Program-made: the position numbers and the translations under genes | Shown: in pieces, positions 46,704 to 63,303 of the stretch | How positions within the stretch are numbered: position 1 is the stretch's first letter | Layout: each line of letters opens with the position of its first letter | NCBI GenBank assembly: GCA_013141075.1 | Contig: JABFRQ010000001.1 | Span: forward strand, 372,001 to 436,000 | DNA from: Methylotenera sp. | GTDB taxonomy: Bacteria; Pseudomonadota; Gammaproteobacteria; Burkholderiales; Methylophilaceae | Reading direction: 5' to 3' | DNA: 64,000 nt | Notes under the pieces: generated by a model | Database searches by the model: none | Told to the model about the DNA's origin: nothing | The model's input: only the letters and a program-made list of their open reading frames with translations

Positions 46704-48676
46704 GCAAGCACTTCCTTCTCACTCATTTCAGCCAGATTTTTAGCGCGTTTTTTGATGCGATAGCGCCTATCAGATAAAGCTAACATGCCACCAAATGCCA
46801 TCATTAGACAACCGAACCATATCCACTCTACCATTGGCTTATGGTAAATACGTACACTCCATGCACCGTCAACTAGCGGCTCACCAAGCGAGGCATATAA
46901 ATCATGAATAAGCGCAGGACTAATGCCAGCCTCAGTCATCGGCATATTGGTCACAGTGTAGAGCCTTTTCTCAGATGCTAGCACAGTGCGTTCAACACCG
47001 TTTTTACTCACGCGAATCTCGCCACGGCTGGCAGTATAGTTTGGCCCTTGAATTTCTTTTACGCCGTTAAAGGTGAAATCATAGCCTGCTAAATGTGCCA
47101 CATCGCCTGGCGCCATACGCACAGCAATTTCAGACTCAAAGCCTTTTACAATAGTCACCCCAAGTGTAAATATCGCAATACCTAAATGCGCAATCACCAT
47201 GCCCCACCAAGCGCGCGGAATAGCCTTAACACGTGTGAATAATGGCTGATCCTGCCCACGTAAACGTAAATACACCATATTCACTGTAGTGGCGATAATC
47301 CAAAAAGCTAAGAACAAGCCTAAGCCTATCATTGGCGTTAAATTACCTAGTAATAATGGCAAAATAATGGCAGTGGCAAGGCTCACACCAAATGCCCAAC
47401 GTAAACGCATGGCCAATTCTGGCAATGATGCATTCTTCCATCTTACGATTGGGCCGATGCCCATCAAAAATAGTGCTGGTGTCATCAAAGGCGCAAACAC
47501 CGTATCAAAATATGGAGGCCCAACTGAAATTTTGCCGTAACCTAACGCATCTATAAATAATGGGTAAAGCGTTCCTAGTAGCACAGAGATTGCTGCTACC
47601 GCTAGCAATACATTATTGGCCAGCAAGAAACTTTCACGCGAAACCACGTCAAACTTGCCGCCTCGCCCCACTGTAGGTGCGCGCCACGCAAATAGCAGTA
47701 ACGAACCACCAATTACAATCACTAAAAACGCGAGAATAAATACGCCACGACGTGGATCGGTTGCAAAAGCATGCACTGAAGTCAACACGCCTGAACGTAC
47801 CAAAAACGTACCGAGCAAGCTCAATGAGAATGCGCAAATAGCCAGCAAAACTGTCCAAGCTTTAAAGCTGCCGCGCTTTTCAGTCACGGCTAACGAGTGA
47901 ATTAGCGCCGTGCCTACTAGCCACGGCATAAATGAGGCATTTTCTACCGCATCCCAAAACCACCAACCGCCCCAGCCTAATTCGTAATAAGCCCAATTAC
48001 TGCCAGCCATAATGCCAATAGTTAGAAAAACCCACGCGGCTGTTGTCCAAGGGCGTGACCAGCGCGCCCAAGCGGCATCCAAGTGACCACCAAGCAATGC
48101 CGCAATCGCAAATGAAAACGCCACAGAGAAGCCAACATAGCCCATATAAAGCATAGGCGGATGAAATATCATGCCAGGGTCTTGCAATAAAGGGTTTAAA
48201 TCGCGGCCGTCCATTGCCGCTGGAATTAAACGTTCAAAAGGATTTGAAACCATCAACATAAACAACAAAAAGCCTACACTAATTAAGCCCATGACGCCCA
48301 GAATACGCGCGCGCATGTCATCTGGCAGGTGCTTTGAAAACATACTTACGGCAACTGTCCACACACTCAATATTAACGCCCACAATAATAACGAACCTTC
48401 ATGCCCGCCCCAAACCGCTGCAATTCTAAATTGTATTGGTAACTTGGAGTTTGAGTTGGCCGCCACGTATGTCACCGAATAATCCATGGTGGCAAAGGCA
48501 TACCCTAAGCAAAGAAAAGAAAAACCTATCAACAAAAATTGCGTACGTGCTAGTGGTCTGGCTAAGCCCATCCACACCGCGTTGCCGCGCGCGGCACCTA
48601 TAATGGGGAGAAAACCTAGCGACAGCGCTACAAGTAAGGCGAGTATGAGAGAAAAATGACCAATTTCAGGAATCAC
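46700..48676 (-). CDS. ccmF: Cytochrome c heme lyase subunit CcmF
   Basis: A 658-residue protein with about 15 membrane helices. The WWD domain reads ELGWGGWWFWDAVENASFMPWL near residue 225; conserved His residues for heme b binding flank it. CcmF transfers heme from holo-CcmE to apocytochrome with CcmH and CcmI. Length is the family norm. It starts about 79 bp after ccmE, the only sizeable gap in the ccm operon. Confidence 0.96.
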   Translation of the reverse strand: MIPEIGHFSLILALLVALSLGFLPIIGAARGNAVWMGLARPLARTQFLLIGFSFLCLGYAFATMDYSVTYVAANSNSKLPIQFRIAAVWGGHEGSLLLWALILSVWTVAVSMFSKHLPDDMRARILGVMGLISVGFLLFMLMVSNPFERLIPAAMDGRDLNPLLQDPGMIFHPPMLYMGYVGFSVAFSFAIAALLGGHLDAAWARWSRPWTTAAWVFLTIGIMAGSNWAYYELGWGGWWFWDAVENASFMPWLVGTALIHSLAVTEKRGSFKAWTVLLAICAFSLSLLGTFLVRSGVLTSVHAFATDPRRGVFILAFLVIVIGGSLLLFAWRAPTVGRGGKFDVVSRESFLLANNVLLAVAAISVLLGTLYPLFIDALGYGKISVGPPYFDTVFAPLMTPALFLMGIGPIVRWKNASLPELAMRLRWAFGVSLATAIILPLLLGNLTPMIGLGLFLAFWIIATTVNMVYLRLRGQDQPLFTRVKAIPRAWWGMVIAHLGIAIFTLGVTIVKGFESEIAVRMAPGDVAHLAGYDFTFNGVKEIQGPNYTASRGEIRVSKNGVERTVLASEKRLYTVTNMPMTEAGISPALIHDLYASLGEPLVDGAWSVRIYHKPMVEWIWFGCLMMAFGGMLALSDRRYRIKKRAKNLAEMSEKEVLA

Positions 48677-48755
48677 GTTAATTTCCTTTTAATATTTATT
48701 CTGAGTTATTTATTTGAGGTTTAAGTTACTAGTTTTTAGCTAACTTAACGTCTAA

Positions 48756-49217
48756 TTATGTTGTAGGCATTACCAAAGTTTTGCCCTGCTCTTTTGCTCG
48801 CTTTAGTGCTTCTGCTGCTTCTGGCGGCATGTAGTTTTCATCATGCTTGGCAAGCACTTCACTGGCCATAAATATGCCATCGGCGCCCACTTTACCTTGT
48901 GCAACTACGCCTTTGCCTTCTTTAAATAAATCTGGCAACACACCTTTATAAATCACGGGTACAGTTTTGGCGGTATCAGTAATAACAAAATGCACAGTTA
49001 ATCCATCATCTTGGCGCTTTAAGCTATTTTCTAAGACTAACCCACCAATACGAAAGCCAGTGTCTTTTGGCACTTCACCTTTTTCAACCTGAGTTGGGGT
49101 GTAAAAAAACACCATATTACTTTGAAAAGCATTCAAAATAAGCATAGCCGCTAAGCCAATTAAAGCCAAGCCTATGCCTATCAATACAAATCGTTTATGT
49201 CGCGCTTTAAGTGCCAT
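48756..49217 (-). CDS. ccmE: Periplasmic heme chaperone CcmE
   Basis: A 153-residue OB-fold protein with an N-terminal membrane anchor ([21 protein letters not shown]). The heme-attachment His lies in [14 protein letters not shown] near residue 127, the conserved HxxxY motif. It receives heme from CcmABCD and delivers it to CcmF. Follows ccmD by 18 bp. Confidence 0.95.
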
Positions 49218-49235
49218 AATAGTTTCTTTATAAAG

Positions 49236-49400
49236 TTATTCTTGTGCCAATAATTTAGATAACCGCAATGCGGCCGCATTACGTTTGCGTAGTGCTATGA
49301 CTTCCCACACCACACAAAGTGCCGTAAGCCCAAAAGAAAACCACACATAAAATGCGTAGCCGCCCATATTGAAAAATGCTGCCCAACTAGCCCATTGCAT
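49236..49400 (-). CDS. ccmD: Heme exporter protein CcmD (54 residues)
   Basis: A short frame between ccmC and ccmE that is easily missed. It reads MQWASWAAFFNMGGYAFYVWFSFG, then a membrane helix LTALCVVWEVIAL and a basic tail RKRNAAALRLSKLLAQE, the standard CcmD plan (FxMGGYAxYVW). The ATG shares its A with the ccmC stop (TAATG). CcmD stabilises the CcmABC-CcmE complex during release of holo-CcmE. Confidence 0.93.
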   Translation of the reverse strand: MQWASWAAFFNMGGYAFYVWFSFGLTALCVVWEVIALRKRNAAALRLSKLLAQE

Positions 49401-50155
49401 TATGCTTTACCTCGTGATGCTGATTTTAGTGACAATTCTTTAACCCAGTCTGCACTTCGTTCGCGCTCAAGCATAATGCAACGTACGCGCATTAACGCAA
49501 CTGCAATGGTGTACATCCAAAAAGCCAAGGCCATAATCAGCATGCCTAATAACATCGTCGCCGCCATTTTTGGCGCTGCGCCCATGTTAATACTTGAACC
49601 TTGATGTAAGGTACTCCACCACTTTACTGAGAAATAAATTATCGGCACATTCACAGCGCCAACTAATGCTAATAAAGCGCCTGCGCGGTCTGCTTTGCGC
49701 GGGTCATCAATAGAAGCTTGTAAGGCAATAAACCCTAAATACAAAAATAATAAAATCAATTCAGACGTCAAACGTGCATCCCAAACCCACCAAGTGCCCC
49801 ACATGGGCTTACCCCATAGCGAGCCTGTGACTAGCGCAATTAAAGTAAATACTGCACCCGTTGGCGCCAATGCTTGCGCCATCATGGCAGACAATCTTGC
49901 GTTCAGGGCTAAGCCAATACCAGCCCAGCAAGCCATCACAATGTAAATCACCATAGACATCCAAGCGGCAGGTACGTGTACAAAAATAATGCGATAAGCT
50001 TCACCCTGTTGAAAATCAGTAGGTGCAATAGCGAAACTTATATAAAGCCCTGCAATAGCCAAAATAGCAGCTAGCCAAGCAAACCATGGAATCATTTTTC
50101 CTGCTAATGGGTAAAATGTTTGTGGGGAAGAATATTTAAACCAATTGATGTTCAT
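49400..50155 (-). CDS. ccmC: Heme exporter/ligation protein CcmC
   Basis: A 251-residue membrane protein with six helices and the WWD motif MWGTWWVWDARLTSELILLFLY near residue 121, flanked by the conserved periplasmic His residues (FVHVPAAWMSM and LHQGSS). It attaches heme to CcmE. 18 bp after ccmB. Confidence 0.96.
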   Translation of the reverse strand: MNINWFKYSSPQTFYPLAGKMIPWFAWLAAILAIAGLYISFAIAPTDFQQGEAYRIIFVHVPAAWMSMVIYIVMACWAGIGLALNARLSAMMAQALAPTGAVFTLIALVTGSLWGKPMWGTWWVWDARLTSELILLFLYLGFIALQASIDDPRKADRAGALLALVGAVNVPIIYFSVKWWSTLHQGSSINMGAAPKMAATMLLGMLIMALAFWMYTIAVALMRVRCIMLERERSADWVKELSLKSASRGKA

Positions 50156-50173
50156 AAGCCAACACTCATAAAG

Positions 50174-50839
50174 TTACTCTACAGAAATTCGTAATGCCGC
50201 AGCAGTGGCTAAAGGCGCCAATACCAAAGCTAAAAGCGAACATGCCGCCAACAATGAAAGATGTGCTTGCGCACTCATACCATGCTGACTTGCCGCGACT
50301 GCACCTGCGCCAAAAATTAGCACAGGTATATACAAAGGTAATACCAACAGTGCGACCAATAATCCACTGCCACGTACGCCTAAAGTAAGCGCTGCGCCAA
50401 TTGCGCCGATTAAACTTAATGCAGGCGTGCCAAGCAATAAAGAGAAAACTAATACCAATAATGCATTATTCGGCAACGCATACTGCAAACCAATTAACGG
50501 TGCTAGCAATACAACTGGCAAGCCGCACACCAGCCAATGCGCCAGCGTTTTAGCCGTCACTAATAACGCCAAGGATTGCGGTGCTAACAACATTTGCTCT
50601 AAGCTACCATCAGCAAAATCTGCTGCAAATAGCCGTGTAAGTGAAATCATCCCTGCCAACAATGCCGCCACCCATAATACGCCAGGCGCAATACTACTTA
50701 ACACTGCTGGCTCTGGACCTATACCTAATGGAAAAAGGCTAGAAACAATCAAAAAGAAAAACAGTGTTGTTGCAACATCTGAACGCCTGCGAAACGCGAG
50801 CAAAAGGTCACGCTTTAACACCGTCAACCAAGCATTCAT
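50174..50839 (-). CDS. ccmB: Heme exporter permease CcmB
   Basis: A 221-residue ABC permease with six helices: LKRDLLLAFRRRSDVATTLFFFLIVSSLFPLGIGPE at the start and FADGSLEQMLL near residue 75 match CcmB. With CcmA it forms the transporter that releases holo-CcmE. Overlaps ccmA by 4 bp. Confidence 0.95.
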   Translation of the reverse strand: MNAWLTVLKRDLLLAFRRRSDVATTLFFFLIVSSLFPLGIGPEPAVLSSIAPGVLWVAALLAGMISLTRLFAADFADGSLEQMLLAPQSLALLVTAKTLAHWLVCGLPVVLLAPLIGLQYALPNNALLVLVFSLLLGTPALSLIGAIGAALTLGVRGSGLLVALLVLPLYIPVLIFGAGAVAASQHGMSAQAHLSLLAACSLLALVLAPLATAAALRISVE

Positions 50840-51453
50840 GCGCTAAGCCTTAATGTTTGGGTAGTTTGTGCGTGAATAAGCACATCTTGGTGCGTAGTGA
50901 TAATTGTCATTCCACCGTTTGTCATGTGTTCGCCTAATCTTGCCGCCAACACATCAACAGACGCTACATCTAACGCGGCAAACGGTTCATCTAATATCCA
51001 CAACTTAGCTTTGGTGAGCCACAAAACAGCCAGCGCGACACGTCTTTTTTGCCCTTGTGAAAGCACTCGCACTGGTAAATTAGCACAACGCGCAATGCCA
51101 ATTTTAGTAAGTGAGGCTAAAGCCTCTGCATCATTGACATGATTACCCGCTAAACGTGCGCCAATTTGCAAATTTTCTAGCGCGGTCAGGTCATCTTTAA
51201 GACCATTTAAATGCCCGATATAACTCAAATTAGACAAGTAATTTTCAGAATCTTGCTTAATTTTTTTACCTAACCAAAAAACAGTACCTTCTTCTGGCGT
51301 CAACAAGCCGCACAACATACGTAACAAACTACTTTTACCACTACCATTCTCACCTAACACATATAACAAACCGCCTGCGTTTAACTCAAACCCTACATTT
51401 TTAAACAGCAAGCGGTCTCCGCGCAAGCAAGCCAAACCTTGCGCTGATAGCAT
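50836..51453 (-). CDS. ccmA: Heme exporter ATP-binding protein CcmA
   Basis: A 205-residue ABC ATPase with Walker A GENGSGKSSLLR near residue 35, signature LSQGQKRRVALA and Walker B LWILDEPFAALD. The short single-domain form is typical of CcmA. It starts only 3 bp after the stop of the upstream TPR/beta-barrel gene, so the ccm operon seems to be headed by that gene. Confidence 0.95.
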   Translation of the reverse strand: MLSAQGLACLRGDRLLFKNVGFELNAGGLLYVLGENGSGKSSLLRMLCGLLTPEEGTVFWLGKKIKQDSENYLSNLSYIGHLNGLKDDLTALENLQIGARLAGNHVNDAEALASLTKIGIARCANLPVRVLSQGQKRRVALAVLWLTKAKLWILDEPFAALDVASVDVLAARLGEHMTNGGMTIITTHQDVLIHAQTTQTLRLSA

Positions 51454-51456
51454 AGC

Positions 51457-53637
51457 TTAGATGTCCAGACGGTAGCCAACAAAACTGAAGTCACGGAAAG
51501 TACGGGAATGCCCATTGACCTGATCATTGATATTAGTCACTTCTACACCAATTTCAGCTTCAATAGTCGCTTTATCACGTAGGCGATAACTAGCACGCAT
51601 AGTAGGTGCCACAATGTATTGCAATGTTGAAGGGTCAATATCCACACGTAATAGCTTAATTGAACTATCTAAGCGCCATTTGTCACGCGGTACCATTACA
51701 TTACTTAAAATCAAAGATTGAAATTTGCTGGTTGGTGCATCAGTATAACTAAAGCTAATCACCGATGTGTCACCTTTAAATATCGTGTCAGAACCTACCG
51801 CCTGTGCGTGATATGTCCAGCTATTACCGCTAGCAAGTGAGGCATTTAAAATAGTGACTGAATTTGGGTCAAATATTCCACCCGCATCTTCTACAGCTTT
51901 TTTAGCTCTATTAAAAGCCGCTACGCCTGCAGCGGCTGTACCTGAAGTACGACTCACTTGTACATCACCACCTAGCTGCCAGCGCGGCGTTACTTGGCGG
52001 GTAGCGCCTAACAATATCAAGTCGGAGTCAGACGTAAGTGCAAGTGCATCATTACGCAACTCAGGTACAGTTGCACCCGCCATTAAAGCCTGATGAATCG
52101 TGCCACCACCGAATACTTGCAGGCTATTGATCATGCTCAATATTGGTGATTTACGATGATCTATCAACATATTGTAGTTAGTACCACCCTCTGTCAGCCA
52201 ATTACCTTGAACCATCGCAATGTTCACTTTATTAAACATGGTGTCGTAATCAAGTAATGAATAAACCGATTTTCCATCTTTAAAATAACGTAATTCAGTA
52301 CCAACTGCTTCACGGTCTTTTACCTCACCAACGCTTTGGTTAATGTAGTAGACATTAGTACTCCACTGGTCATTAAGCGTAGCATCTAGATTGATGCCGT
52401 AAAAATGACGGCGGTAATCAACTCTGTACTCGTCTAACGCACCTAGTACAAAATTAAGTTTATATTTTGGCGTAAAACCATAGCGGAACAAAGCACCATC
52501 AAAGCGGCCTAAAACACCACCTGAGTTACCATTTTGCCGACCTAAACGCGCCATGTAATCAACTTCTTTATTATTGATTTCAACGTATGCTGCTTTTAAT
52601 CTATTTCTATTTTGGTGAGTAGTTCCAGGCAAAAAATCCATAGTTTGAACATCATTCAACACAATTTTATTGTCCCACTCATTTTGGCGGAAACGTGCAG
52701 TTAAGTTGATGGCACTGACCAATTGAGATTGATCATGTGTATGGCTATTGTTTGCAGGTATAGGGTCGTAATTATGGCTATGCGCATCATAATAATATTG
52801 ATCCCAGCTACCATACACTGTATTTTCGTGAATTTCTCTAGTAGGTTTTTTAACTTTAACAGCGCCTACTACTCCAGCCTTAGCTGTGCGATCAATAGCT
52901 GCTATACGCCCACGTACACGCGCAGCTCCATCACCTTGCGGGTAAAGTTTAAGGTAGGTTTCATACTCTGCTTTTGCTTTTGCTGACTCACCCAGATTTT
53001 CTCTTGCATTACCAATGAGTTCTTGCGCTTCTTGAGATGACGTATTTGCTGGCAAACCTAACACCGTATTAAACAACTCTACAGCTTCAGCGGCTTTCGC
53101 AAGTCTACCCTGAGCAACAAGTTTCGCCGCGTAATCATTATCAGTCATACTCGCTGGTTTTGCTGGCACTTCCCCAACAGCGCCTTTTGGCAAAGGCTCA
53201 ACAGCAATTGGCGTTACAGATGCTGTAGCTTTGCCACTTGGCACGTGAATCACAATGCCTCGGCCACTGCTATCTGGCGTAATGGTAAATTTGATTGGCT
53301 TTTTGAACCGCACGCCAATGCTATTAGTTTTTTGGTCTGGGTAATTGACCGTAAAACTAGGCACGGTATCTGTGCTAGGAGAATTTAAAAACTCACGCTG
53401 AGTACTACGTGAGGATAGCTGAGGAAACTCCAAGAAAATTTGAACACGGCTAGTTTCTTTATTGTTAGGAAAGTGCCTGATATAACGTACTTGCGTTAAA
53501 AATTCAATATGAATTTCAGACTCAGTTTGTGTTTGAATCACATCAACTTTATCAAGTAACTTTTCCGCATAAGCCAATGATGGCACAAGCGAGCAAAGCA
53601 TTATTATGACGAGGCTAAATTTTTTAGATAGTTTCAT
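51457..53637 (-). CDS. TPR-containing outer-membrane beta-barrel protein
   Basis: About 726 residues. A signal peptide ends SLAYA-EKLL. Residues 25-130 form an AMIN-like beta domain; 155-245 are TPR-like helices (KLVAQGRLAKAAEAVELFNTVLG, ARENLGESAKAKAEYETYLKLYPQ). From about 270 to the end, alternating amphipathic beta strands (LNLTARF-type, YVEINNKEVDYMARLGRQNG, LGGDVQVSRTSG) suggest a porin-like barrel ending FVGYRLDI. I prefer ATG 53637 (GGAATAT just upstream) to 53649. It lies between the giant multiheme cytochrome and ccmA and has no assigned function; an outer-membrane partner for the cytochrome is an attractive guess. Confidence 0.75.
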   Translation of the reverse strand: MKLSKKFSLVIIMLCSLVPSLAYAEKLLDKVDVIQTQTESEIHIEFLTQVRYIRHFPNNKETSRVQIFLEFPQLSSRSTQREFLNSPSTDTVPSFTVNYPDQKTNSIGVRFKKPIKFTITPDSSGRGIVIHVPSGKATASVTPIAVEPLPKGAVGEVPAKPASMTDNDYAAKLVAQGRLAKAAEAVELFNTVLGLPANTSSQEAQELIGNARENLGESAKAKAEYETYLKLYPQGDGAARVRGRIAAIDRTAKAGVVGAVKVKKPTREIHENTVYGSWDQYYYDAHSHNYDPIPANNSHTHDQSQLVSAINLTARFRQNEWDNKIVLNDVQTMDFLPGTTHQNRNRLKAAYVEINNKEVDYMARLGRQNGNSGGVLGRFDGALFRYGFTPKYKLNFVLGALDEYRVDYRRHFYGINLDATLNDQWSTNVYYINQSVGEVKDREAVGTELRYFKDGKSVYSLLDYDTMFNKVNIAMVQGNWLTEGGTNYNMLIDHRKSPILSMINSLQVFGGGTIHQALMAGATVPELRNDALALTSDSDLILLGATRQVTPRWQLGGDVQVSRTSGTAAAGVAAFNRAKKAVEDAGGIFDPNSVTILNASLASGNSWTYHAQAVGSDTIFKGDTSVISFSYTDAPTSKFQSLILSNVMVPRDKWRLDSSIKLLRVDIDPSTLQYIVAPTMRASYRLRDKATIEAEIGVEVTNINDQVNGHSRTFRDFSFVGYRLDI

Positions 53638-53732
53638 ATATTCCAGCATTCCTATGATGTTAATTTTACATAGGCAGATAGTAGTAATTTAATTGATAAA
53701 AGTCAAATGACAGCATTTGATACACAACTCTC

Positions 53733-53767
53733 TAATGCCCCTCATGAACACTCAACGAGGGGCATTA
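53733..53767 (-). terminator. Hairpin after the multiheme gene
   Basis: TAATGCCCCTC (53733-53743) pairs with GAGGGGCATTA (53757-53767), loop 13 nt. No strong U-tract follows on the minus strand, so it may be a partial terminator or an RNA-stability element. Confidence 0.55.
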
Positions 53768-53774
53768 AATTATG

Positions 53775-54665
53775 TTATTTATCAAAAGTTCTTGTGTTAT
53801 GACATTGACTACAGTCAGCAGCAGTTGTCGGGTGATCACCTTCTTTACCTTCTGCAAACTTGCCGTTATGACAAGTTGCACAGCCAGAAACAATGCCCGT
53901 GTGGTTCATCCTAGCATTACCAAAGCTGGTAGTGTTATGACAGTTCTCACAGTTGGCAGTGTTTGTGCCAATGTGGCTGGTCGGCTTGTCTTTAGTGTGG
54001 CAACTTGCACAACCGCTGGTAATGCCTGTGTGGTTCATCTTAGCATTACCAAAGCTGGTGGTGTTATGGCAGCTTTCGCAATTTGTAGCACGTGTGCCTG
54101 TGTGATTTGTCGGTTTGTCTTTGGTGTGACAAGACACGCAACCATTGATGATACCTGTATGGTTCATCTTCGCACCGCTAAAGCTGGTGGTGTTATGGCA
54201 GTTCTCACAGTTAATGGCACGTGACCCTGTGTGATTGGTTGGCTTGTCTTTAGTGTGACAATTGGTACAACCATTCACAATGCCTGTGTGGTTCATCTTC
54301 GCACCGCTAAAGCTGGTGGTGTTATGGCATGTTTCACAGTTAGTGGCACGTGTACCCGTGTGATTGGTTGGCTTGTCTTTAGTGTGACAATTGGTACAAC
54401 CATTCACAATACCTGTGTGGTTCATCTTCGCACCGCTAAAGCTGGTGGTGTTATGGCATGTTTCACAGTTAGTGGCACGTGTACCCGTGTGATTGGTTGG
54501 CTTGTCTTTAGTGTGACAATTGGTACAACCATTCACAATGCCTGTGTGGTTCATCTTCGCACCGCTAAAGCTGGTGGTGTTATGGCATGTTTCACAGTTA
54601 GTGGCACGTGTACCCGTGTGGCTAGTTGGCTTGTCTTTAGTGTGACAATTGGTACAACCATTCAA
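53775..54665 (-). CDS. Giant multiheme cytochrome c, C-terminal part (out of frame with its N-terminal part)
   Basis: 296 codons opened by a TTG at 54665 that is only where the frame happens to begin, not a likely start. It holds 14 CXXCH: six full 43-residue units (CTNCH...CETCH, later variants CVSCH/CESCH and CASCH/CENCH) and a divergent terminal pair CATCH and CSQCH ending CHNTRTFDK. The repeats become more diverged towards the C-terminus. It continues the protein of 54725-56638; a 2-nt deletion near 54664 and a 1-nt insertion near 54747 separate them. Confidence 0.88.
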   Translation of the reverse strand: MNGCTNCHTKDKPTSHTGTRATNCETCHNTTSFSGAKMNHTGIVNGCTNCHTKDKPTNHTGTRATNCETCHNTTSFSGAKMNHTGIVNGCTNCHTKDKPTNHTGTRATNCETCHNTTSFSGAKMNHTGIVNGCTNCHTKDKPTNHTGSRAINCENCHNTTSFSGAKMNHTGIINGCVSCHTKDKPTNHTGTRATNCESCHNTTSFGNAKMNHTGITSGCASCHTKDKPTSHIGTNTANCENCHNTTSFGNARMNHTGIVSGCATCHNGKFAEGKEGDHPTTAADCSQCHNTRTFDK

Positions 54666-55970
54666 TGCCTGTGTGGTTCATCTTCGCACCGCTAAAGCTG
54701 GTGGTGTTATGGCATGTTTCACAGTTAGTGGCACGTGTACCCGTGTGGATTGGTTGGCTTGTCTTTAGTGTGACAATTGGTACAACCATTCACAATGCCT
54801 GTGTGGTTCATCTTCGCACCGCTAAAGCTGGTGGTGGTATGGCATGTTTCACAGTTAGTGGCACGTGTACCCGTGTGATTGGTTGGCTTGTCTTTAGTGT
54901 GACAATTGGTACAACCATTCACAATGCCTGTATGGTTCATCTTCGCACCGCTAAAGCTGGTGGTGTTATGGCATGTTTCACAGTTAGTGGCACGTGTACC
55001 CGTGTGATTGGTTGGCTTGTCTTTAGTGTGACAATTGGTACAACCATTCACAATGCCTGTGTGGTTCATCTTCGCACCTTTGAAGCTGGTGGTGGTATGG
55101 CATGTTTCACAGTTAGTGGCACGTGTACCCGTGTGATTGGTTGGCTTGTCTTTAGTGTGACAATTGGTACAACCATTCACAATGCCTGTGTGGTTCATCT
55201 TCGCACCTTTGAAGCTGGTGGTGTTATGGCATGTTTCACAGTTAGTGGCTCGTGTACCCGTGTGATTGGTTGGCTTGTCTTTAGTGTGGCAATTGGTACA
55301 ACCATTCACAATGCCTGTGTGGTTCATCTTCGCACCTTTGAAGCTGGTGGTGGTATGACAGTTCTCACAGTTAGTGGCTCGTGTACCCGTGTGGCTAGTT
55401 GGCTTGTCTTTAGTGTGGCAATTGGTACAACCATTCACAATGCCTGTGTGGTTCATCTTCGCACCTTTGAAGCTGGTGGTGGTATGACAGTTCTCACAGT
55501 TAGTGGCACGTGTACCCGTGTGATTGGTCGGCTTGTCTTTAGTGTGACAATTGGTACAACCATTCACAATGCCTGTGTGGTTCATCTTCGCACCTTTGAA
55601 GCTGGTGGTGGTATGGCATGTTTCACAGTTAGTGGCTCGTGACCCTGTGTGATTGGTCGGCTTGTCTTTAGTGTGACAATTGGTACAACCATTCACAATG
55701 CCTGTGTGGTTCATCTTCGCACCTTTGAAGCTGGTGGTGGTATGGCATGTTTCACAGTTAGTGGCTCGTGACCCTGTGTGATTGGTCGGCTTGTCTTTAG
55801 TGTGACAATTGGTACAACCATTCACAATGCCTGTGTGGTTCATCTTCGCACCTTTGAAGCTGGTGGTGTTATGGCATGTTTCACAGTTAGTGGCTCGTGA
55901 CCCTGTGTGATTGGTCGGCTTGTTTTTGGTATGGCATGTCGTACAACCATTCACAATGCCTGTATGGTTC
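53907..55970 (-). repeat. Sixteen tandem 129-bp units encoding two hemes each
   Basis: Successive copies of the conserved GTTCAT (plus strand; codons for MNH) occur at 53907, 54036, 54165, 54294, 54423, 54552, 54679, 54809, 54938, 55067, 55196, 55325, 55454, 55583, 55712, 55841 and 55970. Spacing is 129 bp everywhere except 127 and 130 around 54679. Each unit encodes 43 residues with two CXXCH, each preceded by an NHTG histidine. Units in the 5' part of the gene are nearly identical, suggesting recent expansion or gene conversion. Confidence 0.96.
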
Positions 55971-56638
55971 ATTTTTACAGGCTTCCAGCCAGTGGTTTTA
56001 TGGCAGGTATCGCATGATTGGCTAGTGGTAATGTGACCAGAGTTCATACCCGTAGCATCTACACCGTGACAAGACTTACAAGTACCCGCAACAACCTTAC
56101 TATGGTCATGACCTGAAGCAGGCAACCAAGCGCTAGTTTTTTTATGACAAGTATCACAAGCAGCCGCTGTAGTAGGATGTCTAGCAGGCTTGCCAGCAAC
56201 ACTAATATTATTGTGGCAAACAGAACAAGTACCATCTGTACCATCATGCTTAAAGTTTACAGATTTCCAACTAGACGATTTATGACAACTGTCACAACTT
56301 TTATTGGTTGGTATATGTTTTGTTTCTTTGGCAGATGCTGAAGCACGACCACTTTGCACATGGCAACTAGCACACGCTTTTGGCGTGCCCTTGAAAATGC
56401 CATTTGTATGGCAGCTTTCACAGTTTGCTTTGGCGTGAGCCTCGGTAAGTAAAAATCCAGTTTTACTGTGATCAAAATTAACACGGCGTTTACCGCCTTG
56501 GGCGGCTGAAGCCTCGCTAACGCCTAGAGAAAAACTTACCAATAATATCGCCATAAATAGGCTCGCCCAACGCAGCATTGCCGATACTCGGTCTGGTTGC
56601 GTAGAAACTGCTAAGCTTTTAACTGTCATTAGTGTCAT
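54725..56638 (-). CDS. Giant multiheme cytochrome c, N-terminal part
   Basis: 637 codons. Signal peptide with cleavage near SEASA-AQGG. Seven irregularly spaced CXXCH follow (CESCH, CASCH, CDSCH, CSVCH, CDTCH, CKSCH, CDTCH), then nine full 43-residue units (NHTG...C-T-N-C-H, NHTG...C-E-T-C-H) and the first half of a tenth, 26 CXXCH in all. A 1-nt insertion near 54747 then turns NHTG into PHGYTCH and a stop. Repaired with the downstream part, the protein would have 41 CXXCH in about 950 residues. The NHTG histidines are good distal ligands for bis-His hemes. Probably periplasmic or cell-surface electron transfer. ATG follows GGGAGA. Upstream lies the 21-bp palindrome shared with the 63-kb promoter. 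Confidence 0.9.
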   Translation of the reverse strand: MTLMTVKSLAVSTQPDRVSAMLRWASLFMAILLVSFSLGVSEASAAQGGKRRVNFDHSKTGFLLTEAHAKANCESCHTNGIFKGTPKACASCHVQSGRASASAKETKHIPTNKSCDSCHKSSSWKSVNFKHDGTDGTCSVCHNNISVAGKPARHPTTAAACDTCHKKTSAWLPASGHDHSKVVAGTCKSCHGVDATGMNSGHITTSQSCDTCHKTTGWKPVKMNHTGIVNGCTTCHTKNKPTNHTGSRATNCETCHNTTSFKGAKMNHTGIVNGCTNCHTKDKPTNHTGSRATNCETCHTTTSFKGAKMNHTGIVNGCTNCHTKDKPTNHTGSRATNCETCHTTTSFKGAKMNHTGIVNGCTNCHTKDKPTNHTGTRATNCENCHTTTSFKGAKMNHTGIVNGCTNCHTKDKPTSHTGTRATNCENCHTTTSFKGAKMNHTGIVNGCTNCHTKDKPTNHTGTRATNCETCHNTTSFKGAKMNHTGIVNGCTNCHTKDKPTNHTGTRATNCETCHTTTSFKGAKMNHTGIVNGCTNCHTKDKPTNHTGTRATNCETCHNTTSFSGAKMNHTGIVNGCTNCHTKDKPTNHTGTRATNCETCHTTTSFSGAKMNHTGIVNGCTNCHTKDKPTNPHGYTCH

Positions 56639-56819
56639 TTAAATCTCCCGAGGCCTTTATTGGCCAATATTTCATCAACATATGCTATTTATATATCAAT
56701 ACTCTATATCTAATTTTAATTTTGGCACTTACTAAAACTTAAATCGCCTTAACTATTTAAAATATTTGATGCAATTATAAAACGCAGTTATGAAAGTTTT
56801 ATTTCACAATCGCGATATT

Positions 56820-56840
56820 ACGTGTGATATTTTCACACGT
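56820..56840. promoter_or_regulatory. 21-bp palindromic operator, site 1
   Basis: ACGTGTGA-TATTT-TCACACGT: perfect 8-bp arms with a 5-bp centre, between the divergent giant-cytochrome and DUF6502 genes. 19 of 21 bases match the site at 63172. A weaker relative, GTGTAAAAAATTCCCAC, lies at 56851-56867. Confidence 0.75.
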
Positions 56841-56885
56841 CAACCTTTTTGTGTAAAAAATTCCCACATATTTTAATTTATTTTT

Positions 56886-56900
56886 TGTATAATACTTAAA
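56886..56900 (+). promoter_or_regulatory. Extended -10 promoter of the DUF6502 gene (leaderless)
   Basis: TGTATAAT-type extended -10: TATAAT at 56888-56893 with TG just before. Transcription would begin about 7 nt later, on or next to the ATG at 56900, and no Shine-Dalgarno is present, so the mRNA is probably leaderless. Confidence 0.65.
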
Positions 56901-57790
56901 TGATTGAAAGCGCTGAAACTAATTCTGAAAATCCTGTTAAGCAGAGAATGCTAACAGCATTGCAACGTGTGCTAAAACCGCTAGTCAGGTTGGCGCTTGC
57001 ACAAGGCATAAACTACCAAATGTTGCTTGAAACATTAAAAATTGTTTTTGTGCAGGTGGCAGAAGAAGATTTTAAATTAGCACAACGTGAACAAACTGAT
57101 AGCAGAATTAGCTTGCTTACGGGTTTGCACCGTAAAGATGTACACCGCTTACGTGATCAACCTGATAACGCTCTAAACCAACCTTCACTCGTCACTTTAG
57201 GTAGCCAATTAGTTGGCCTATGGATAAGCGATGCCGACTTTATTGATGTCAACGGCAAACCAAAGCCGCTTTCAAGGCTAGCTAGCATTGGTGGTAACAT
57301 ATCTTTTGAGCGCTTAGTTGCTAGAGTGAGCAAAGATATCCGCGCTAGATCTGTACTTGATGAGTGGTTAAGAATTGGCGTTGTACATATTGATAAAAAT
57401 GATTGTGTTTGCCTTAATACTGAGGCTTTTGTGCCAAATGTTGGCTTTGAAGAGAAGCTGTTCTTTTTTCAACAAAATATGCATGATCACGCTGCCGCTA
57501 CTGCGCATAATTTAATGAATTTAACGCCGCCTATGTTAGAACGTTGTGTGTATTATGATGGACTAACACTAGTAGCCATCAATGAGTTAAAAGCAATTGC
57601 TGAACATGAAGGTATGGTCGCCTTAAAAGCCGTTAATGCCCGTGCAATTGAGTTGCAAGCTGAATGTAAAAATACCATAGATGCTAATGAGCGCTTTACT
57701 TATGCGCTGTATTTTTACCATGTGAAAGAAAATTTAGGATCTAAACTCACACATGAATACTATCGAAGAAAAACTATTCGAATTGATTAA
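56900..57790 (+). CDS. DUF6502 family protein, putative DNA-binding regulator
   Basis: A 296-residue soluble protein I place in DUF6502. Near residue 70 the segment TDSRISLLTGLHRKDVHRLRD has the shape of a helix-turn-helix (SRIA-x-LTG-x-x-RK-x-V-x-RL), preceded by helices LVRLALAQGINYQMLLETLKIVFVQVAEEDF. The rest is helical with no catalytic motif recognised. It is transcribed away from the giant cytochrome, over a palindromic operator, and its stop is directly followed by the DUF5666 ATG. A regulator of the cytochrome genes is a reasonable guess, not shown. Confidence 0.75.
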   Translation: MIESAETNSENPVKQRMLTALQRVLKPLVRLALAQGINYQMLLETLKIVFVQVAEEDFKLAQREQTDSRISLLTGLHRKDVHRLRDQPDNALNQPSLVTLGSQLVGLWISDADFIDVNGKPKPLSRLASIGGNISFERLVARVSKDIRARSVLDEWLRIGVVHIDKNDCVCLNTEAFVPNVGFEEKLFFFQQNMHDHAAATAHNLMNLTPPMLERCVYYDGLTLVAINELKAIAEHEGMVALKAVNARAIELQAECKNTIDANERFTYALYFYHVKENLGSKLTHEYYRRKTIRID

Positions 57791-59188
57791 ATGAATACTT
57801 TGATGCGTGCTTACTTAGCAATACTATTCACCAGCTTATCGTTAACAGCCATTGCAAACCCTTGTGACGATGGCGGCATAGGTGGCACTGGTATTGCATT
57901 AAGTCGTGGCATTGGCGGTACAGGCATTATCGCAGAATCTTCTGGCGGCTTAGGCGGTACTGGTATCAGCGGCAATGACATAGCTAGTACGGATGCAGGT
58001 ATCGGCGGCACGGGCATTAGCAACGTGCAAAAGGGCATAGGCGGCACGGGCATGCAAGCGCAAGCTGGCATTGGTGGCACAGGTATTGTGGGTGTCATTA
58101 CTGGTTTTGGCAGCATTTGCGTTAATGGGCTAGAAATACATTACTACAATGACACGCCTGTAGATTTAAATGGTATGCAAATTAGCAGCCAATCACTGGC
58201 TATTGGCCAAGTAGTTGCTGTTAGAGCCACTGGCAATGAGCAATCATTAGTGGCTGATGAGATTCATGCTTACCATCAAATTACTGGACCAGTGACTGCG
58301 GTAGATATTGCTGGCAACAGCATGAAAGTAATGGGTCAAACGGTAGCAGCAAGTGCAACGCAGCTAAAAGGCATACAAATTGGTCAGTGGGTTGAGGTAA
58401 GTGGTTTACGCAATGCCGATGGCGGCGTGGTAGCAAGCCGTATTGACCAAACAAGCCAACAAAAAAATGTACGCATGGTCGGCAACTTAACGCGCCGTGG
58501 CAACGCCGTGTACTTAGGTGGCACTAAAATTGAAGGTTTGCCAAAAGCGGTAGGAAATATGGATACCGACACGCATTTAACTGGGGCTTGGAATGGCAAA
58601 GCAATCTACGTTAAAGACATGACCATAGGGCCAGTGAGCGACCTATTGCAAAAGGTTGAAACTTTCCACTTACAAGGCTTGGCAAGCGACGTTACCAATG
58701 GTCGCCTAAAACTTGCAGGGCAGCCAGTAACGGTAACAGGCGCAACTAAAATCATTGGTAATGATGCCAAACACTTGCAAGGAAAAGCCGTCGTCATTCG
58801 CGGACAGGTGAAAGAAGGCAAACCTACCGCGCAGTCAATTGAGTTAAGACACTTTAAAACTGAGCGTAAAAATCAGCATGAATCACGCTTGGAATCAGTG
58901 CACAGCAAACATTCACACGACGTTGAAGAAAAAGCAGTAGCCAAAGAACATCATAGCCATGAATCAACAAAAATTGAATCGCCAGATAAACTGATTGAAG
59001 TTGAAAAGTCTAAAAAAATCGATAAGGCTGATAAAGCTGAGCGAGTAGAAAAACATGAAAGAATTGAGAAAGTTGAAACAGTAGAGAAGATTGAGAGGGT
59101 TGAGCTACCCGAAAGAATAGATAAAGTTGAGCTGCCCGAAAGATTTGAAAAAGTAGAACGACCTGAAGAAATAGAAAGGCATGATTAG
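57791..59188 (+). CDS. DUF5666 domain protein with GIGGTG repeats
   Basis: A 465-residue exported protein. After a signal peptide (cleavage near AIA-NPC) come six G(I/L)GGTG(I/M) motifs in residues 25-105. Then several DUF5666-type OB-like beta units (VVAVRATGNEQSLVADEIHAY, GPVTAVDIAGNSMKVMGQTV, IQIGQWVEVSGLRNADGGVVASRID). The last 100 residues are charged Glu/Lys/His repeats (EKVETVEKIERVELPERIDKV) likely to form an extended helix or bind the cell surface. It starts immediately after the DUF6502 stop, so the two are translationally coupled. Function unknown. Confidence 0.83.
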   Translation: MNTLMRAYLAILFTSLSLTAIANPCDDGGIGGTGIALSRGIGGTGIIAESSGGLGGTGISGNDIASTDAGIGGTGISNVQKGIGGTGMQAQAGIGGTGIVGVITGFGSICVNGLEIHYYNDTPVDLNGMQISSQSLAIGQVVAVRATGNEQSLVADEIHAYHQITGPVTAVDIAGNSMKVMGQTVAASATQLKGIQIGQWVEVSGLRNADGGVVASRIDQTSQQKNVRMVGNLTRRGNAVYLGGTKIEGLPKAVGNMDTDTHLTGAWNGKAIYVKDMTIGPVSDLLQKVETFHLQGLASDVTNGRLKLAGQPVTVTGATKIIGNDAKHLQGKAVVIRGQVKEGKPTAQSIELRHFKTERKNQHESRLESVHSKHSHDVEEKAVAKEHHSHESTKIESPDKLIEVEKSKKIDKADKAERVEKHERIEKVETVEKIERVELPERIDKVELPERFEKVERPEEIERHD

Positions 59189-59242
59189 TTTAATTACAAC
59201 AAATAGCTTTGAGCCTTTCAGCTATGCACGCTAAAATAAACA

Positions 59243-60031
59243 ATGAATAATAAAATAAACTCAAAAATCGCAGGTATTTTTCTAAGCACTCTAGCGCTAC
59301 AATCCAATGTAGCACTCGCTGAAGGCGCCTTTAGCCTAACCAGTGGTGTGGATTACAGCTCTGGTAAATACGGCCAAACACAATCCACAAACATCACGTA
59401 CGTCCCTTTCATTGCAAAATATGAAACAGATGACACCACATTAAAACTCACCGTGCCTTGGGTTAAAATTACTGGGCCTGGCGATGTGGTAGGCGGCAGC
59501 ACGCCCGTGGTGCTAGGCAGCTCTAATCGCCCCACCACTACGCAATCTGGCCTTGGCGACATTGTTTTTGGGGCAACACAAACGGTTGCTAGATTTGGCG
59601 AAACTAATCCACTTACATTAGATTTAACTGGCAAAATTAAATTTTCTACCGCATCTGCTTCAAAAAGTTTGGGCACAGGTAAAAATGATTACACTGTTGA
59701 GGCCGATGCTTACAAACCGCTTAATAAAGCGGTTACATTATTTGGTGGTGTTGGCTACAAGCTATTGGGCGACCCAACTGGAATTAACTTGAATAATGTT
59801 TGGTTTGGTTCGGCAGGCTTATCCTATCGAATCAACCCCGCAACTAGCGCTGGTTTTATGGCCGACATTCGCCAAGCGACAATGAGCACCTCTCAACCAC
59901 TGCGTGAAACAACTATTTTTATCAGCCACAAATTTAATGCGCACTATAAGTTACAAAGCTACCTTACCCATGGTTACTCTAATGCAAGTACAGATTGGGG
60001 CGGCGGCATAATGCTGGGCTGGATGTATTAA
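59243..60031 (+). CDS. Predicted outer-membrane beta-barrel protein
   Basis: A 262-residue protein with a signal peptide (cleavage near VALA-EGAF). The mature part has alternating amphipathic strands (FSLTSGVDYSSGKYG, YVPFIAKYETDDTTLKLTVPWVKITG, GLGDIVFGATQTVARF) and ends GIMLGWMY with an aromatic C-terminal residue, as in transporter-like outer-membrane barrels. 54 bp after the DUF5666 gene, then a strong terminator: third gene of the DUF6502-DUF5666-barrel set. No specific substrate can be named. Confidence 0.75.
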   Translation: MNNKINSKIAGIFLSTLALQSNVALAEGAFSLTSGVDYSSGKYGQTQSTNITYVPFIAKYETDDTTLKLTVPWVKITGPGDVVGGSTPVVLGSSNRPTTTQSGLGDIVFGATQTVARFGETNPLTLDLTGKIKFSTASASKSLGTGKNDYTVEADAYKPLNKAVTLFGGVGYKLLGDPTGINLNNVWFGSAGLSYRINPATSAGFMADIRQATMSTSQPLRETTIFISHKFNAHYKLQSYLTHGYSNASTDWGGGIMLGWMY

Positions 60032-60075
60032 ATCACCAGTTTTGGTTTAGATTAACCTCAATACAAAAAAATCAA

Positions 60076-60114
60076 AAAAAGCCTGATTACTCGTCTGAGT
60101 AATCAGGCTTTTTT
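60076..60114 (+). terminator. Intrinsic terminator after the barrel gene
   Basis: A perfect 12-bp stem (GCCTGATTACTC at 60081-60092, complement 60097-60108), GTCT loop and T6, with A-run before. It ends the DUF6502-DUF5666-barrel transcript. Confidence 0.95.
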
Positions 60115-60164
60115 AACCCAACCGTGCATTTAAAAGCTAGGCCATTCCCAAAAATATCGTGGTT

Positions 60165-60221
60165 ATTGCCAGCGTAGCGCGGCAATCTAACATTTACAGA
60201 TTGCTACGCTACGCTCGCAAT
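60165..60221. repeat. 24-bp imperfect inverted repeat (dispersed-repeat type)
   Basis: Left arm 60165-60188 and right arm 60198-60221 are complementary at 21 of 24 positions (arms begin ATTGCCAGCGTAGCG), loop 9 nt. Similar ATTGCGAGC...GCAATCT units recur in many proteobacterial genomes as mobile palindromes. It lies between convergent transcripts. Confidence 0.7.
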
Positions 60222-60245
60222 GACGGTTTAGCTATACATATAAAG

Positions 60246-62243
60246 TTACCTAGAAAACCCAGCACCCATTTTCAGCTCAGACCATTTATTAGAAACATGG
60301 CAACGCTCACACTGACGTCCAAAGCTACCATCATGCACATCGTCGGACGAATGACACTCACCACAAGTGACTGAAGTAACGAGCTTTTTACCTTTAGATG
60401 GCGTTTTGTGGCACTCATAACAACCTATGCCTTTATGGCCGCCATCTAACTTAAACTTCGTTTTTTTGTCGTGGTCGAAGTCCCATACTTTCCAATCACG
60501 TGCGTTGTGACAAGTTTCACACGCTGGGCCTAACTTAAGCTTGTGTACATCGTCTTTAATATGGCAACTATAGCAATCTGACTTCGCGTTTTTATATTCT
60601 GGCGTCAGGTGGCATTTTTTACACTCCACCTTAAAATGCTTGCCGAGTAATGGGAATTTCGATTTATTGTGATCAAACTTCGCATCATTCCAAGATTTAG
60701 CATTATGACAATCTTCACACTTATCACCTTCTTGGCCTTTGTGTTTATCATCTTTTTTGTGACAGCTAATACAGGTGCTTTTCACCTTATCTTTATACAA
60801 ATTACCCTTGTGGCAGTCGTCACACTTAGTCGTTCTATGCTTATCGAGCAGCCTATATTTGGTATCGCGGTCATGATCAAAAATCATGGTTTTCCAAGTT
60901 TTTTCAACGTGACAGCTTTCGCATTTCAGGTCATAACGACCTTTATGCCCTTTAGCATCGTCATCTTTCTTATGGCAAGAATAACAATCCGTTTTAAGAT
61001 TCTGCCCGTAAAGTTTACCTTTATGGCAATCAACACATTTTGTAGTGACATGCTTATCGCGTAGCTTATATTTTGTGTCGCGGTCATGGTCAAACTTAGT
61101 GGCGTTTTTCCAATCTTTGGCCGTATGACAGCTTTCGCATTTAGCACCAAAGTTCCCCTTGTGGCCTTTGGCATCGTCATCTTTCTTATGACACTCACTA
61201 CACTCTATAGGCAGTTTATCTGTCAAGTTGACCTTATGACATGCCTTGCAATTAGTATCTTGGTGCTTATCTAGCAGTGGGAACTTAGTTTTATCATGAT
61301 CAAAACCAGGTGTTGTGGACCAATTCTTTTCAATGTGACATTTCTCACAGCGATCACCCAAAGTTCCCTCGTGCTTATCATCTTTTTTATGGCAAGAAAT
61401 ACAGCTTGTCGGTAGTTTTAAAGAGGCCGCAGATGGCTTATGGCAACCTTCGCACTTCACTGCGGCGTGCTTACCACGTAGCGGATATTTGGTATCTCTA
61501 CCATGGTCAAACGTATCAGCTTTCCAATCTTTCGCGGTGTGACAGTCTTCACATTTCTTGCCTAAAATACCTTTATGCTTGTCATCTTTTTTATGGCAAG
61601 AGAAGCAATCTTTTGGCGCTTCTTTATATTTTTTAGATTTATGGCATTCATCACACTTCACGTCTGCATGCTTGCCTTCAAGCGCAAAATCTGATTTATT
61701 ATGATCAAATCTCTCTCTGGTTTCTTTCCAGTTTTTCTCATTGTGGCAACTTTCACAATCAACGCCCAATGTACCCTCGTGTTTATCGTCTTTTTTATGG
61801 CAAGCGTTACATGCGCTAGGTGCATCACGATACTTAGCTTTGGGTTTATGGCAGTCTTTGCACTCGGTTTTTGCCTCGCCATGCGCCCCTTTTAACTCAA
61901 AATCAGTTTGCGCATGTTTAAAGGTTTTTTCATTGATAGGCGCAATATTAGCAGTGCGGCCTTTGTGGTCGGTGTGGCATTCAGCGCAATTACGTGATTC
62001 TTTAATTTTTCCGTGATAGCCTTTCTTTTGCATCACATCTTTATTTACGTCTTTATGGCAATCTTTACACAGCTGATTTTGACCTTCTTTATCAAACTTT
62101 TTATGGCACTTTTCGCAAGTATCTTCATATTTTAAATGGCCCTGAATGACCTTGCCAGGCATCATCACTGACTCAAGTGTGTCTGCCCCTGCAGTCAATG
62201 ACAGAAAAAAAGATAAAATAAAGATACTGAGTAAACGTAACAT
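60246..62243 (-). CDS. Periplasmic cytochrome c3-family multiheme protein with 27 CXXCH
   Basis: 665 residues, signal peptide ending SLTAGA-DT, then 27 CXXCH motifs. A unit of about 71 residues recurs with three motifs: a C-x-x-CHK pair, CHKKDD and CEDCHTAKDW-type, separated by FDHDRDTKYxLxDKH. The FDH and DKH histidines are likely distal heme ligands. Lys-rich overall, unlike the Thr/Asn-rich giant cytochrome. Highly charged, soluble, probably a periplasmic electron wire or reservoir. It follows the cytochrome b-like gene by 15 bp, so the two form one operon with the palindromic operator upstream. Confidence 0.9.
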   Translation of the reverse strand: MLRLLSIFILSFFLSLTAGADTLESVMMPGKVIQGHLKYEDTCEKCHKKFDKEGQNQLCKDCHKDVNKDVMQKKGYHGKIKESRNCAECHTDHKGRTANIAPINEKTFKHAQTDFELKGAHGEAKTECKDCHKPKAKYRDAPSACNACHKKDDKHEGTLGVDCESCHNEKNWKETRERFDHNKSDFALEGKHADVKCDECHKSKKYKEAPKDCFSCHKKDDKHKGILGKKCEDCHTAKDWKADTFDHGRDTKYPLRGKHAAVKCEGCHKPSAASLKLPTSCISCHKKDDKHEGTLGDRCEKCHIEKNWSTTPGFDHDKTKFPLLDKHQDTNCKACHKVNLTDKLPIECSECHKKDDDAKGHKGNFGAKCESCHTAKDWKNATKFDHDRDTKYKLRDKHVTTKCVDCHKGKLYGQNLKTDCYSCHKKDDDAKGHKGRYDLKCESCHVEKTWKTMIFDHDRDTKYRLLDKHRTTKCDDCHKGNLYKDKVKSTCISCHKKDDKHKGQEGDKCEDCHNAKSWNDAKFDHNKSKFPLLGKHFKVECKKCHLTPEYKNAKSDCYSCHIKDDVHKLKLGPACETCHNARDWKVWDFDHDKKTKFKLDGGHKGIGCYECHKTPSKGKKLVTSVTCGECHSSDDVHDGSFGRQCERCHVSNKWSELKMGAGFSR

Positions 62244-62258
62244 TTAGTAATAACCTTA

Positions 62259-63083: not shown

Positions 63084-63171
63084 TGTAATTCCCTTTTCAT
63101 TTATTACTTTAATGTATTGTATTACTAGAAGTTTAGGGATAACTACCCAAAAAATATTACGAATAAATTTG

Positions 63172-63192
63172 ACGTGTGAAATTTTCACACAT
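63172..63192. promoter_or_regulatory. 21-bp palindromic operator, site 2
   Basis: ACGTGTGA-AATTT-TCACACAT, the near-identical twin of the site at 56820. On the minus strand a TATAAT (63198-63193) immediately precedes it, so the start of the cytochrome b/27-heme transcript falls inside the palindrome, the geometry of repression. Confidence 0.75.
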
Positions 63193-63303
63193 ATTATAAC
63201 CAATAATCATCATTAGTTGTATATTGTGTAATACTCTATAGCAATACACTAGTGAAATACAACAGCAAAACATAGTAAATCTCTTCTTAAAATAGTACCA
63301 ATT

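Follow-up and report, generated by a model that had tools for sequence, protein, structure and literature searches.

A tandem-repeat multiheme cytochrome of Methylotenera as the probable extracellular part of a PCC3 porin-cytochrome conduit

We analysed a stretch of 64,000 nucleotides from a Methylotenera sp. genome (GenBank assembly GCA_013141075.1, contig JABFRQ010000001.1, positions 372,001 to 436,000; hereafter the window, whose own coordinates are used throughout), in which a multiheme cytochrome gene containing a tandem array of 129-bp units lies on the minus strand at 53775-56638. We conclude, with a probability of about 0.8, that this array cytochrome serves a methylotroph as the extracellular part of a PCC3 porin-cytochrome conduit, since all four PCC3 components have counterparts here, the porin by homology and weak signals only. 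The four genes form one minus-strand cluster (51457-63203), with three plus-strand genes in between. As described by He et al. (2017, PMC5566968), the inner-membrane protein (IMP) of PCC3 is about 300 aa long and has five transmembrane segments (TM), with SGXXG on TM4 and WX3HX13H on TM3 and TM5. According to the same paper, the extracellular cytochromes have a median of 34 hemes, with examples of 63 and 85, the periplasmic ones have a median of 21, and PCC3 cytochromes are repeat-rich with 22-39 residues per heme.

Architecture of the array cytochrome

Tandem Repeats Finder (TRF) detected one strong period-129 array in the window, at 53890-55972 on the minus strand, with 16.2 copies and 93% matches. 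Anchoring on the unit start gave 16 units followed by a diverged terminal bis-heme unit (53778-53906), which bears out the 16-unit array described in an earlier note on this DNA. Each unit encodes 43 residues with two CXXCH motifs and is exactly 129 bp long in 14 of 16 cases, the adjacent units 10 and 11 having 130 and 127 bp. Because of these odd lengths, the gene as assembled consists of two open reading frames (ORFs) on the minus strand and has no single frame of about 950 residues. ORF A (54725-56638, 637 aa, 26 CXXCH) includes the N-terminal part of the protein (55970-56638), which carries seven CXXCH motifs and, by eye, a signal peptide, and which shares 74-76% protein identity with the relatives G012 and G027 over the first five hemes. 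The array goes on in a second frame as ORF B (53775-54665, 296 aa, 14 CXXCH), which begins within a repeat, has no leader and includes the terminal unit. The two ORFs are separated by a stretch (54666-54724) where units 10 and 11 meet. At the DNA level, we mapped 41 CXXCH codon motifs, seven before the array, 32 inside and two after it. The 41 hemes in about 950 residues given in the earlier note are thus right as a DNA-level count, but the two ORFs together hold only 40 motifs (26 and 14), the 41st falling between them.

When ORF A was shuffled 1000 times, CXXCH occurred 0.39 times on average and at most three times, compared with 26 observed, and we rejected a chance origin of these motifs. 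The ORFs match general multiheme Pfam families (Cytochrome_C7, Paired_CXXCH_1, Cytochrom_c3_2 and others). Both in the array ORFs and in a second, 27-heme cytochrome of the cluster there are about two cysteines per heme and about one histidine per heme outside the motifs (29/26 in ORF A, 13/14 in ORF B and 27/27 in the 27-heme protein). As every unit brings two CXXCH motifs and two other histidines, each heme could be bis-histidine ligated, and such ligation would imply a low-spin electron-transfer chain, not a catalytic site. Judged from its sequence, the array is most likely a bis-histidine heme wire, which agrees with the heme-rich chain of repeated units pictured in the earlier note. Heme ligation, heme spacing, cellular location and the direction of electron flow are what we infer; a structural model of four units, built on an alignment with further units of the window and with the related locus L022, had a mean pLDDT of only 42.9, so that no heme distances could be obtained from it.

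Genes of the proposed conduit and their co-occurrence

The second multiheme cytochrome is encoded on the minus strand at 60246-62243 and was identified by Pfam and motif counts; it was overlooked in the earlier note, as were the remaining conduit genes. The protein has 665 aa, 27 CXXCH motifs and 27 other histidines, and we assume it to be periplasmic. All nine complete copies counted at the protein level in the genus have 27 motifs (window, G009, G012, G023, G024, G027, G030, G031 and G032). Elsewhere in the genus, 27 motifs were found in a cut copy in G014 and, by DNA map, in G070, the copies in G008 and G033 are partial, and the G071 partner lies outside this count. In other families, the partner has 27 (G059) or 24 motifs (G060).

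The adjacent IMP gene (62259-63203, minus strand), recognised by motifs and hydropathy, encodes 314 aa with WX3HX13H twice (W116-H120-H134 and W289-H293-H307) and SGXXG (S157-G158-G161). Simple hydropathy analysis indicated five hydrophobic segments besides an N-terminal extension, which is probably the result of a mis-assigned start. An alignment of 14 homologues shows no variation at the four motif histidines, at S157, at the two glycines of SGXXG or at W289, and next to none at W116. The structural model of the IMP (mean pLDDT 63.4) gave no match at E <= 0.001 in a Foldseek search against the PDB, and the best hits of a PDB profile search, at E 0.042, were coiled coils. The fourth gene, that of the outer-membrane (porin) candidate, lies next to the array cytochrome gene (51457-53649, minus strand). 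From sequence analyses, its 730-aa product appears to consist of a leader, seen by eye, an N-terminal beta-like part, a short TPR region and 465 C-terminal residues of beta-like periodicity.

Of 52 genomes of the genus, 14 have the array, and the porin candidate is found in these 14 and in none of the others. A close IMP homologue, defined by a strict threshold of E < 1e-130, is present in 12 of these 14 and in no other genome of the genus; the two carriers without it, G008 and G033, are drafts of about 450 contigs each. In G059, which belongs to another family, the genes for the IMP, a 27-heme cytochrome, a 17-heme array cytochrome and a porin candidate stand in a row. A scan of a genome collection yielded four loci from 18 candidate stretches, of which only L022 is close (50% identity). 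A further multiheme match elsewhere in the window's genome (G000:C2:142011-142547) is a frame of about 215 residues with 35% identity.

Unit turnover and array length

The copy-number comparison among relatives proposed in the earlier note gave complete arrays of 34 (G012), 34 (G023) and 40 motifs (G027), and at least 39 motifs before the contig end in G030; all these counts depend on the assemblies of the relatives. The N-terminal five-heme segments of G012 and G027 have a DNA identity of 0.90, yet the motif numbers differ (34 and 40). Unit number does vary between relatives, as the earlier note had supposed; recombination as the cause is something we infer.

Within the window array, the heme spacing alternates between 20 and 23 residues (43-residue unit, 21.5 residues per heme), which the N-terminal part does not (16, 26, 23, 23, 26 and 22); the relatives mostly alternate between about 24 and 23 residues (47-residue unit). 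An H-X6/7-CXXCH element recurs within the unit, which bears out only in part the old internal duplication proposed earlier: the NHTG signature named for it is not general, as the second half of the unit in relatives mostly reads NHV, NHI, THI or SHI by eye. The near-identity of units is genuine but uneven. In a comparison of 15 window units, units 2-14 share 0.89-1.0 identity, with no difference at all between 2 and 3; unit 1 has 0.85-0.93 identity to units 2-14, and for units 15 and 16 the values against all others drop to 0.70-0.79.

In order to compare units between genomes, 88 mixed 129/141-bp units were aligned with MAFFT, followed by a codon-by-codon alignment of 87; one window unit was dropped from the latter for a stop, and unit 10, with its odd spacing, stands outside both sets. 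In the codon alignment, 14 window units have an average DNA identity of 0.88 among themselves and of 0.43-0.52 to eight other unit sets, compared with 0.72-0.75 between the window and G012/G027 over the N-terminal five-heme segment. For 67 of the 87 units, the most similar unit belonged to the genome that the unit itself came from, while label shuffles gave 10.6 on average and 23 at most. These results support an expansion and homogenisation of the units after the lineages had parted, presumably by unequal recombination or slippage. In addition, the tail of the terminal unit (53778-53906) is closer to G024/G059 than to G012/G027 by eye, and the N-terminus of the array protein is, by measurement, closest to G012/G027; from these sequence affinities, the protein may be a mosaic.

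Neighbouring genes and cytochrome c maturation

Directly behind the porin gene lies a set of System I cytochrome c maturation (ccm) genes on the minus strand (46700-51453), with ccmA abutting the porin gene and followed by ccmB, ccmC, ccmE and ccmF. CcmF and an ABC subunit were recognised by Pfam; the names ccmA, ccmB, ccmC and ccmE are those we take to apply from gene order and characteristic sequence features. The porin-ccmA adjacency is present in 11 of the 14 carriers, and in G008, G009 and G014 the two genes are on different contigs. CcmF was detected in 14/14 PCC3 carriers and in 19/38 non-carriers (52 genomes; p 0.0007). This contrast comes from the 28 genomes with ResB, the System II marker (7/7 carriers vs 4/21 non-carriers; Fisher p 0.00028), and is not seen in the 24 genomes without ResB (7/7 vs 15/17); both p values are overstated, because the genomes are kin to each other. 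If upheld under phylogenetic correction, the link between PCC3 and System I would point to a need for System I where a single chain carries this many hemes; we claim no priority for this link.

At the other end of the cluster, a divergent 4Fe-4S/FAD-NAD(P) oxidoreductase gene starts on the plus strand at 63304 and is cut by the window end (64000); in relatives the protein has about 430-500 aa. Of 13 other loci where the IMP had a match, 12 have this gene next to that of the IMP (examples are L027:4648-5955, L032:2950-4461, L033:5553-6848 and L024:14634-16013), the exception being L023, in which it was not found. The pairing extends to other families and to a Terriglobia metagenome-assembled genome, and the PCC3 section of He et al. 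2017 (PMC5566968) does not mention this gene. Its product may supply electrons to the inner end of the conduit or draw them off there.

The two cytochrome genes are separated by three genes on the plus strand, which encode a DUF6502 protein (56900-57790), a DUF5666 protein with IGGTG repeats (57791-59188), both assigned by Pfam, and a 262-aa protein with a signal peptide by eye (59243-60031). The latter is possibly a small outer-membrane protein, given a weak DUF3187 match below the cut-off and a strand-like count of 16 compared with 10.8 in shuffles. All three (56900-60031) are present in the eight genus loci that span this stretch (window, L027, L028, L031, L034, L036, L042 and L045); they are absent between the cytochrome genes of G059 and are located beyond the Fe-S/FAD gene in L022.

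Reliability of the assignment and of the reading frame

Several observations weigh against the PCC3 assignment. The porin label, as far as the sequence goes, is its weakest link: it is based on homology and weak signals, no Pfam or NCBIfam barrel family and no PDB barrel was matched in profile searches, and the PDB profile matches below E 1 are almost all TPR-type proteins. For residues 266-730, the strand count did not exceed that of shuffles (21 vs 18.4, sd 2.5), and the beta-periodicity excess was modest (z 3.7); these tests are weak, because the second was run after the first had failed and because the 27-heme cytochrome also reached z 2.2. The IMP co-occurrence depends on the stricter threshold, since weaker IMP-like matches occur in 43 of 52 genomes. 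Furthermore, the two cytochrome genes are parted by three plus-strand genes in this genus, and the array gene is split into two frames here, so that this copy could be a pseudogene. As to PCC3 in general, which is present in many freshwater bacteria, its function is so far a putative one. For the two PCC3 clusters of Sideroxydans lithotrophicus ES-1, levels on Fe(II) were below those on thiosulfate (PMC8788666). In another study, an extracellular PCC3 cytochrome has 0 in all eight proteome columns, though the same cluster's porin and IMP were among the proteins detected (PMC12016527). PCC3 gene expression was above the mean in Sideroxydans CL21 (PMC12442390).

If the frame break were real, the array cytochrome of this strain would be a pseudogene or a truncated 26-heme protein, which we consider unlikely, although it has to be taken seriously. 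The contig that includes the window has 542,553 bases and is one of 11 in a genome of 90.39% completeness, and the assembly runs contiguously through the array, where units 10 and 11 are anomalous in length and the net shift is never restored. In a split test covering the region from about 44.4 kb to the window end, where G012/G027 orthologues were found (the first 44 kb being outside), 39 of 41 adequately covered reference ORFs were unsplit, all in the last 20 kb or so, and both split ones correspond to the array gene. Since only this gene was split, the genome is not generally indel-ridden near the locus, and we rejected general indel noise as an explanation. A frame break common to relatives was likewise rejected, as the interruption in G071 is a gap of Ns inside the array. 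On the other hand, the break sits in the middle of the array, among near-identical units where the placement of reads is hardest. Nine of the 14 carriers end a contig within the array (G008, G009, G014, G024, G030, G031, G032, G033 and G070), and with G071 this makes 10 of 14 with a contig end or gap there, so that both the unit number and the frame break are insecure. The remaining carriers are the contiguous but frame-broken genome of the window and G012, G023 and G027, which all three are assembled through the array and have an uninterrupted frame. Both ends of the gene, as well as the genes of the porin candidate, the 27-heme partner and the IMP, are open frames. Given that assemblies fail in the array, a consensus error is the likelier cause of the break, and an intact frame would then exist in this organism. 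More generally, unit counts of such repeat-built genes in draft genomes are unreliable.

Proposed function and alternatives

In the proposed mechanism, electrons would pass from the quinol pool or an Fe-S/flavin protein to the five-helix IMP, probably a di-heme b protein, and on through the 27-heme periplasmic cytochrome and the porin to the array cytochrome and an extracellular partner. Tandem duplication and homogenisation would alter the length of the outer segment, with the periplasmic one held at 27 hemes in the genus. Such a combination would be expected if the periplasmic segment had to match a fixed gap and the outer one had not. A methylotroph at low oxygen could in this way export electrons to humics, Fe(III) or other cells.

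We favour export over uptake by a small margin only, and an inward conduit, taking electrons from Fe(II) or a partner cell, is a strong contender that we hold somewhat below even odds. PCC3 was first found via iron oxidisers, and many Gallionellaceae have it (26 complete clusters, PMC10734462; 'widely distributed' according to a later paper); in addition, M. versatilis 301 was also listed with a Cyc2-like gene (PMC5566968). However, only few of the iron oxidisers of the 2017 paper carry PCC3, which is found in many bacteria not known for metal redox (PMC5566968), its levels in ES-1 are lower on Fe(II) (PMC8788666), and a methylotroph would already have reduced carbon as a donor. The many equivalent hemes could also serve as an electron store (capacitor) or as a heme or iron store more than as a wire, and a capacitor was considered for Gallionellaceae as well (PMC10734462). 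We regard this as improbable, since a fixed 27-heme partner, a porin candidate and an IMP in one cluster point to a through-path, though storage and conduction are not mutually exclusive. Least probable of all is a free extracellular nanowire of the OmcS/OmcE/OmcZ kind outside any conduit. The regular unit and the very low residue-to-heme ratio would suit it, but the porin candidate accompanies the array in 14 of 14 carriers, the protein gains its length by repeating units within a single polypeptide and not by polymerising, and no Geobacter filament cytochrome is among the four PDB matches of ORF A at E <= 0.01.

Returning to the PCC3 conduit, its constant 27-heme part and its other part, whose unit number varies between close relatives, make this genus a natural length series for relating chain length to electron transfer. 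As a speculation that we consider doubtful, the array could be a length-variable, perhaps frame-switching locus, whose units would recombine within populations to give differing surface reach and off-states around a constant 27-heme segment, the conduit moving with its own System I operon into lineages otherwise equipped with System II.

Comparison with known systems

The observation made in the earlier note is real with a corrected count, but our analysis does not bear out the view that the cytochrome is a striking novelty in a lineage where none was to be expected. With published extracellular PCC3 cytochromes having a median of 34 and up to 63 and 85 hemes (PMC5566968), this one is not exceptionally heme-rich. 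Neither is the lineage without precedent: 14 of 52 genus genomes carry the array, the 2017 paper already names M. versatilis 301 among the PCC3 carriers (PMC5566968), and putative PCC genes, without the PCC3 name, were reported in humic-lake Methylotenera in 2019, where it was suggested that methyl oxidation could couple to Fe(III) or humics (PMC6344600). He et al. 2017 is the only literature we found that joins PCC3 with Methylotenera. In common with the PCC3 described there (PMC5566968), the present cluster has a porin candidate, two very heme-rich repeat cytochromes, an IMP with both motifs and a low residue-to-heme ratio; it differs by three plus-strand genes between the cytochromes, a 43-residue unit, ccm genes directly behind the porin gene and a broken frame. 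In Gallionellaceae, the periplasmic PCC3 cytochrome has 21, 24 or 27 hemes and the extracellular one 10-35, with long, mostly linear AlphaFold2 models (PMC10734462). A 27-heme periplasmic member and a variable extracellular member are thus shared, while the present array, with 41 motifs at the DNA level, is longer and its core units have almost the same DNA sequence. As the same contrast between fixed partner and variable array is reported there, it is not new.

The MtrCAB and MtoAB systems share the idea of a porin with multiheme cytochromes across the outer membrane, but the array ORFs are far under the NCBIfam cut-offs for MtrA/DmsE and MtrC/OmcA: with the decaheme-family models, ORF A reached 64.4 of 192.2 bits (TIGR03508) and 57.2 of 209.3 bits (TIGR03507), and ORF B less. 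The Geobacter cytochromes OmcS, OmcE and OmcZ form long c-type heme chains outside the cell as polymers of small subunits. Extracellular heme chains would be common to both, their length there being reached by polymerisation and here by tandem units in one chain. In a sequence-only search, ORF A had four PDB matches at E <= 0.01, namely two small tetraheme-type cytochromes, 6r2q_A and an MtrC, and none of OmcS, OmcE or OmcZ. A study of the rapid change of Geobacter multiheme cytochromes describes gene duplication and loss, the relevant passages not treating unit number within a gene (PMC12977616). What is added here are a partner fixed at 27 hemes in the genus next to arrays of 34, 34 and 40, the homogenisation of units within genomes, a unit of 43 instead of 47 residues and the CcmF counts. 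Taken together, the array cytochrome is most probably a large, but not a record, member of the known PCC3 kind.

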